This document shows, piece after piece, positions 35,344-36,935 of a stretch of 39,097 nt of DNA; the first letter of the stretch is position 1, and the number at the start of each line of letters is the position of its first letter. The notes under the pieces are model-generated. The model had not been told where the DNA came from, ran no database searches, and saw only the letters and a list, made by a program, of their open reading frames with translations. The translations under genes were made by a program, and so were the position numbers. Source of the stretch: Brachyspira murdochii. GTDB taxonomy: Bacteria > Spirochaetota > JAAYUW01. The DNA is taken from positions 2,787-41,883 of the forward strand of contig DYJT01000018.1 of assembly GCA_020722965.1 (NCBI GenBank), read 5' to 3'.

Positions 35344-35372
35344 TTGACAGCTGAAATTATCTGTTCTATATA
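35344..35372 (+). promoter_or_regulatory. Promoter of the mraZ division cluster
   Basis: A perfect -35 TTGACA (35344-35349), a 17-base spacer and TATATA (35367-35372) place the transcript start near 35379. It lies inside what would otherwise be an N-terminal extension of mraZ, which argues against the upstream TTG start. Confidence 0.7.
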
Positions 35373-35374
35373 TA

Positions 35375-35399
35375 TGGTGAATAGTGGTGAATGGTGGAT
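35375..35399 (+). promoter_or_regulatory. Candidate MraZ operator (TGG boxes at a 10-bp step)
   Basis: TGGTG (35375), TGGTG (35385) and TGGAT (35395) recur at exact 10-base intervals; an extra TGGTG begins at 35392. E. coli MraZ is known to bind three TGGGN boxes separated by five bases, the same 10-base step. The boxes straddle the expected transcript start and the ribosome binding site of mraZ, suggesting self-repression. Confidence 0.55.
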
Positions 35400-35856
35400 G
35401 CTAAATTTTTTTGGTGAATATCGATTTTCAATTGATGAAAAGGGTAGAACTGCATTACCCGCATCTTTTAAAGATATTTTAGAAAAAGAAAATGAAGATT
35501 CAGAACATTGGGTAATAACCAAAGGGATGGAACAATCTATTTTGCTGTATCCAATGAAGATCTGGCAGCAATTACTCGAATATTTATCACAAAAACTTTC
35601 TTATAAAAATGAGGTAGATAGAACATTTTTAAGATACTTCATCTTTCCTGCAAAAGAAATTGTTGTAGATAAGCAAAATAGATTTGTAATACCTAAAAAT
35701 CTGATTGAACATTCCAGGATAAGTAAAAATGTCGTTTTTCTGGGGGCATTGAATAAGATAGAGATATGGTCAGAAGATTACTGGGAGGGGTATATTAGTA
35801 ATTCTTCTGACCAACTATCTCAACTGATTAGTAGATTGGATGATTTGAATCTTTGA
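35398..35856 (+). CDS. mraZ: Transcriptional regulator MraZ
   Basis: MraZ is a ring-forming DNA-binding protein that represses the division and cell-wall (dcw) cluster, including its own promoter. It has two SpoVT/AbrB-like half-domains, each with the DxxxR signature: SIDEKGRTALPASF (first) and VVDKQNRFVIPKNL (second). With the ATG at 35398 the protein is 153 residues and begins MLNFFGEYRFS, the usual family start. The open frame reaches further upstream to a TTG, but that stretch contains the promoter and operator-like boxes. A GGTGA at 35386-35390 can serve as ribosome binding site. rsmH follows after a structured gap of about 200 bases. Confidence 0.92.
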   Translation: MLNFFGEYRFSIDEKGRTALPASFKDILEKENEDSEHWVITKGMEQSILLYPMKIWQQLLEYLSQKLSYKNEVDRTFLRYFIFPAKEIVVDKQNRFVIPKNLIEHSRISKNVVFLGALNKIEIWSEDYWEGYISNSSDQLSQLISRLDDLNL

Positions 35857-35976
35857 TTCCGATTCAAATTAAATATAATCTACTTTGTTTAAAATTCAAG
35901 AGCAAAAAAATCTGGGAGGGGGATTTTTTTGGGTCTCTTGAAAAACTGGGAGGAAGCTGGGGTTTTTAACCCCAGC
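35843..35976 (+). promoter_or_regulatory. Three consecutive hairpins between mraZ and rsmH
   Basis: Hairpin 1: ATTTGAATC/GATTCAAAT (35843-35869, 9 bp, 9-nt loop that includes the mraZ stop). Hairpin 2: outer TTCAAGAG/CTCTTGAA (35895-35942) enclosing AAAAAAATC/GATTTTTTT with loop TGGGAGGGG. Hairpin 3: GCTGGGGTT/AACCCCAGC (35956-35976), 9 bp with a TTT loop. The G-rich loop of hairpin 2 and the CCCAG of hairpin 3 could pair instead, giving alternative folds. A terminator, attenuator or regulatory leader is possible; no long T-tract follows hairpin 3. Confidence 0.6.
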
Positions 35977-36053
35977 AAATTTTAATAAATAAATAAATTT
36001 AAATAAAAAATTAAATTTTAATATAAAAAAATTTTAATAAAAAGTTCAAGGAG

Positions 36054-36935
36054 ATGTTTATTAACTACCATACGCCAGTATTGATCGATAAGATCATAGA
36101 ATTTGTTCCCCAAAATATCGATAGTGCAAATAATTTACTCGTTGATGCCTGTTTTGGAGAAGGTGGTTATACAGATAGATTTTTATCAAGATTTAAAAAT
36201 TTAAATATTCTTGGAATAGAGCAAGATTCTGAAATTTATAATATAGTTAAAGAAAAGTATAAGAATGAAAAAAGGGTTTTAATAAAAAATGGAAATTTTG
36301 TCAAAATAGACGAATTTGTAAATGAAGAATTTGTTAAAGATAAAAGACTCAAATTCGTAGTATTCGATCTTGGAATTTCTATGTTTCATATTAAGGCTTC
36401 CACTAAGGGGATAAGTTTTAATAAAGAATTAAGATTAGACATGCGATTGAATCCTGATGCGAGTGAAAGCGCATATGATATTATAAATTACTATAAAAAA
36501 GAAGATCTTGCAGATCTTTTTTATAATTATGCAGATGAACGAATGTCGAAACAGATAGCACATGCTATTGTTGAATTTAGAAAAACGAAGAAAATAGAGA
36601 CAACTTCCGAACTTGTTAAAATAATATCTTCGGTTAAAAAAGATAGAAGGAAAAATCCTGCAACAAAAGTTTTTCAAGCTTTAAGAATTAAGGTAAATAA
36701 TGAATTTGAAAACTTAAAAAATGCACTTGAGAAGATAATCCCGTTTTTAGATCAGGATGGAAGAGTCGCCATAGTTTCATATCATAGTGGTGAAGATAGA
36801 ATAGTTAAAAATTTTATTAAAAATCGAATAGATTTAAGACCAATTTTTAAAAAGCCAATTATTCCAGATTATTCTGAAATGAGTATTAATCCAAGCGCGA
36901 GATCGGCAAAATTAAGGATTTTTGAAAAAATTTAA
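36054..36935 (+). CDS. rsmH: 16S rRNA (cytosine-1402-N4)-methyltransferase RsmH (MraW)
   Basis: RsmH methylates N4 of C1402 in the ribosomal decoding centre using SAM. YHTPVL at the start, VDACFGEGGYT (the SAM-binding glycine loop), FDLGIS, KGISFNKELRLDMRLNPD and SYHSGEDRIVKNF are family landmarks, and the 293-residue length is right. NPATKVFQALRI matches the conserved R-FQALRI-type helix. The AAGGAG at 36048-36053 abuts the ATG with no spacer, which is odd. An ATT at codon 3 would have ideal spacing, but a rare ATT start is only speculation. It lies in the dcw order mraZ-rsmH-ftsL. The next frame begins at its stop codon. Confidence 0.93.
   Translation: MFINYHTPVLIDKIIEFVPQNIDSANNLLVDACFGEGGYTDRFLSRFKNLNILGIEQDSEIYNIVKEKYKNEKRVLIKNGNFVKIDEFVNEEFVKDKRLKFVVFDLGISMFHIKASTKGISFNKELRLDMRLNPDASESAYDIINYYKKEDLADLFYNYADERMSKQIAHAIVEFRKTKKIETTSELVKIISSVKKDRRKNPATKVFQALRIKVNNEFENLKNALEKIIPFLDQDGRVAIVSYHSGEDRIVKNFIKNRIDLRPIFKKPIIPDYSEMSINPSARSAKLRIFEKI

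Follow-up and report, generated by a model that had tools for sequence, protein, structure and literature searches.

The mraZ operator of E. coli was reportedly described by Eraso et al. in 2014 as an array of TGGGN boxes. Inspection of the E. coli K-12 sequence revealed TGGGA, TGGGG and TGGGA at a 10-bp step, beginning 8 nt after the -10 element. MraZ is a repressor of its own cluster in both E. coli and M. genitalium (PMC8475190), and the PmraBc site of B. cenocepacia is reported to lie downstream of the -10 element 'as in E. coli' and to overlap the transcription start (PMC7761207). For Mollicutes, the passage of PMC5282649 that cites Fisunov 2016 gives the MraZ site as (AAAGTGK N3) repeats. 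MraZ autoregulation of this type is already known in E. coli and many other bacteria, and the finding reported here is sound but ordinary; a deep uncultured spirochaete lineage is now placed in the known scheme.

The window, that is, the whole analysed stretch of 39,097 nucleotides from an Exilispira (Spirochaetota) genome, contains a candidate MraZ operator at mraZ, composed of three direct GTGG/TGG boxes at a 10-bp step (threshold, at least three). It is located at the promoter of the gene, downstream of the -10 element, and the transcript start is a predicted one. The promoter comprises a -35 element TTGACA (35344–35349), a 17-nt spacer and a -10 element TATATA (35367–35372). Letters and coordinates of the promoter and the three boxes agreed exactly with those in a preliminary description of this DNA. 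The features of the locus are as follows.

35344..35372, + strand: sigma-70-like promoter TTGACA-N17-TATATA, with -35 and -10 conserved in three congeneric genomes
35375..35379, + strand: putative MraZ box 1, A-TGGTG, 2 nt past the -10, at the predicted transcript start
35385..35389, + strand: putative MraZ box 2, G-TGGTG, a 10-bp step from box 1
35395..35399, + strand: putative MraZ box 3, G-TGGAT, overlapping the start codon by two bases (AT)
35398..35856, + strand: mraZ, 152 aa, start ATG 35398 (TIGR00242, PF02381, in-frame stop in the congeneric genome G001, PDB homologues)
35901..35976, + strand: two hairpins in the mraZ-rsmH gap (z -3.97; 79% match in G001), the second (35956–35976) terminator-like

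The mraZ product scored 111.2 bits against TIGR00242 (cut-off 98.35; the profile was run on the longer ORF) and gave two PF02381 matches above the cut-off, corresponding to two MraZ/AbrB-like domains, with 1n0e and 9qlr as homologues in the PDB. Residues D13, K15, R17, D91 and R95 were invariant in an alignment including E. coli MraZ, and the DxK.R and D...R motifs were present. The ATG at 35398 aligns with the N terminus of other MraZ proteins, and the longer starts TTG 35344, ATG 35374 and GTG 35377 were rejected because the sister species G001 carries an in-frame TAG just before box 3. The preliminary description had named the right ATG but took the boxes to fix it, whereas the proof is this stop codon. 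A GGTGA at 35386–35390, inside box 2 and 7 nt before the ATG, may be a Shine-Dalgarno sequence, a role that we infer only, since the assembly contains no 16S gene and the anti-Shine-Dalgarno comparison had nothing to match. Downstream, the gene order is mraZ, rsmH, a short ORF and murE.

A scan with the sigma-70 consensus did not report the mraZ promoter, because its rule requires the -10 to end in T. An extra TGGTG at 35392 lies outside the 10-bp register. Another TGGTG, at 35412, was rejected as a box; at 17 bp from box 3 it does not fit the register, and the coding sequence accounts for it (GGT GAA codons, GEY motif). About 5e-5 TGG triples at 10-bp steps are expected per 100 nt on one strand at 28.6% G+C, and the window contains a single one, at mraZ, with both strands counted. 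Across the 2.07-Mb genome there were five bare TGG triples versus two for the reversed-pattern control, and the bare triple alone is therefore weak evidence and not significant genome-wide. The repeated unit GTGGTGAATNGTGG occurs in this genome at mraZ only, alone among the five triples. GTGG pairs at a 10-bp step showed no genome-wide excess (5 versus 6 for the reversed control), and by these counts nothing points to a wider regulon with an MraZ-type site in this genome, where no second site stands out.

Comparison of this genome (G000) with those of two congeneric species (G001 and G002) revealed that 22 of the 24 positions from -24 to -1 before the mraZ ATG were identical in all three, versus 21/55 in the region further upstream; the boxes are thus conserved in the close relatives, on which the preliminary description had made its reading depend. 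Within the promoter, 6/6 positions of the -35 element, 5/6 of the -10 element and 4/17 of the spacer were conserved among the three genomes, the other two species having TATTTA as the -10. In this compact Exilispira layout, box 1 starts 2–3 nt after the -10; it is preceded by A (ATGG) in two of the three species, and most boxes have a G at that position. The cleanest array was found in G001, reading TGGTGAATAG TGGTGAATAG TGGATG. In G003, which belongs to another family of the same order, the array comprises four boxes, the last of which includes the GTG that starts mraZ. The conserved short operator GTGGTGAATNGTGGAT is now available for binding tests.

At the sensitivity used, an MraZ match was found in 119 of the 247 Spirochaetota genomes. 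The remaining 128 gave no match with the query used, which may reflect repeated loss or strong divergence. The upstream regions with an assignable mraZ start (n = 96) were searched within 160 nt and compared with dinucleotide shuffles (200 rounds). Of these regions, 90 had two or more TGG spaced by 10 bp, versus a mean of 8.7 (maximum 20) in shuffles, and 35 had three or more, versus 0.24 (maximum 2), with TGG-to-TGG distances peaking at 10, 20 and 30. Among 76 named loci, mostly from other phyla, at least two boxes were counted in 70 and at least three in 55, as counts without a shuffle control. Arrays of boxes at 10 bp precede nearly all spirochaete mraZ genes found, and their position ranges anywhere from the -10 to the start codon: the box-to-start-codon distance across Spirochaetota had a median of 27.5 nt (5th–95th percentile, -2 to 116), and the last box was within 5 nt of the start codon or overlapped it at 25 of 94 loci from several families (by automatic call, with some starts uncertain). 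An array that reaches the start codon, as here, is a position within known variation, occupied in about a quarter of spirochaete loci and in several families. Since TGGT boxes are common among spirochaete mraZ loci, the earlier view of TGGTG as a special box type was abandoned.

Conservation of the boxes in the genus, together with the 10-bp periodicity across the phylum, argues that the boxes are an MraZ operator, and both results back the earlier proposal of an MraZ-type operator at a sigma-70-like promoter. Judged from the sequence, the array at 35375–35399 is very probably an operator at the gene's own promoter, through which MraZ would occlude the transcript start in negative feedback, and control of mraZ by its own product through the conserved TGG site is most likely. 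With the GTGG-type boxes spaced by one helical turn, MraZ oligomers would contact one after another on a single face of the DNA, beginning immediately past the -10 and ending at the start codon. When abundant, MraZ would cover the transcript start and stop RNA polymerase loading or promoter clearance, and this occupancy would close a negative feedback loop. We infer both the binding of MraZ to the array and its repressive sign; autorepression by occupying the transcription start appears to be the best explanation, because MraZ represses in E. coli and M. genitalium and the residues are kept here. In favor of the operator count the difference in conservation (22/24 versus 21/55), the phylum-wide periodicity, the layout in E. 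coli and at 70 of the 76 named loci, the intact MraZ and the restriction of the repeated unit to mraZ; counted against it are the missing G before box 1 and the hairpin after mraZ, which may split mraZ from the cluster.

The same 24 nt could be conserved mainly as a translation signal, with the 10-bp step an accident and GGTGA/GGTGG forming the Shine-Dalgarno sequence and the context of the start codon; the end of the array at the ATG and the GGTGA 7 nt before it fit such an account. Box 1, however, is too far upstream for a Shine-Dalgarno role, the entire 24-nt stretch rather than a single hexamer is conserved, and boxes across the phylum hold their 10-bp step while the distance to the start codon varies, which together make this account highly improbable. 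Hardly more credit is given to a dual action, in which MraZ would block transcription at the boxes and also bind its own mRNA, at the leader that carries them, to regulate translation. The transcript does include boxes 2 and 3, which cover the presumed Shine-Dalgarno sequence and the start codon, and the start codon of G003 forms part of a box, but most lineages have their boxes at a large distance from the start codon, and MraZ is known as a DNA-binding protein (PMC8475190; established knowledge). The array probably reaches into the leader and start codon simply because the leader is very short, and not to provide a second tier of control. That the TGG repeats arose by chance in an AT-rich leader would be in line with the genome-wide counts of bare triples (five, versus two for the control, in 2 Mb), but this account is contradicted by the conservation in the genus and the periodicity across the phylum, and its probability is negligible.

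Both hairpins between mraZ and rsmH contain the repeated CTGGGAGG, and G001 retains the stems TTCAAGAG/CTCTTGAA and CTGGGG/CCCCAG. The G002 version resembles an intrinsic terminator in that a T-run comes after it. Rfam gave no match at the gathering threshold around the mraZ locus, including the hairpins. The hairpin may limit the reach of MraZ control into the cluster; transcription of rsmH and the genes after it may require read-through or start at a separate promoter.

The start codon of rsmH appears to be ATT (36060) here, ATT in G001 and ATA in G002, with ATG at the same codon in G003. It precedes the RsmH motif HxPV by two codons, and AGGAG is found at a typical distance from it in the three Exilispira genomes (36049–36075 in this genome). 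Between the ATT of G001 and the nearest preceding in-frame stop there is no ATG, GTG or TTG, the sole alternative start in G002 is a distant TTG at -78, and in G000 there is an ATG in direct contact with the Shine-Dalgarno sequence. The apparent start of infC in this genome is ATC, in the context AAGGAG-TATAAC-ATC-GAC-AGA (G000:C14:17368-17862, minus strand); a non-canonical infC start is known elsewhere.

RsmH methylates C1402 at N4, and loss of this methyl group has been reported to raise non-AUG initiation (PMC7379855). The apparent AUU and AUA starts of rsmH suggest a translational feedback, in which low RsmH would lead to higher RsmH synthesis, as non-AUG initiation rises without the C1402 methyl group; the proposed loop, an attractive idea, resembles the control of infC by IF3. 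A limited literature search revealed no self-limiting RsmH loop in titles or abstracts. That two feedback loops, MraZ acting on an operator spanning the start codon and RsmH acting on its own translation, stand at the head of the Exilispira division and cell wall cluster is a tentative proposal that we consider possible but rather doubtful. The rsmH start observation may matter more than the mraZ operator itself.

Among the known or surveyed sites, those of the spirochaete families f18, f42, f50 and f2 share a last box within about 5 nt of the mraZ start codon or overlapping it, but there box 1 often follows the -10 by 8–12 nt, and in some arrays the step is 20 bp, the middle box being degenerate. 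The Mollicutes site, as given in the passage cited above, has the same 10-nt period, GTG core and position upstream of mraZ, whereas the unit here is GTGGTGAATA. At PmraBc of B. cenocepacia (PMC7761207), the repeats likewise lie past the -10 and over the transcript start, with binding seen by gel shift there and predicted here; that site differs in having four 7-nt repeats with 3-nt spacers. The preliminary description had set the present array apart from that of E. coli by its position over the transcript start and ribosome binding site. Boxes over the transcript start are the rule, however, and in E. coli too they cover the expected start; the reach to the ribosome binding site and start codon is a real difference. 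The array ends about 18 nt before the start codon in E. coli and at the start codon here, box 1 begins 8 nt versus 2 nt after the -10, and the boxes are TGGGN in E. coli versus TGGTG, TGGTG and TGGAT here. In both operators, the Exilispira one being a candidate, TGG occurs three times as a direct repeat, spaced by 10 bp and shortly after the -10.
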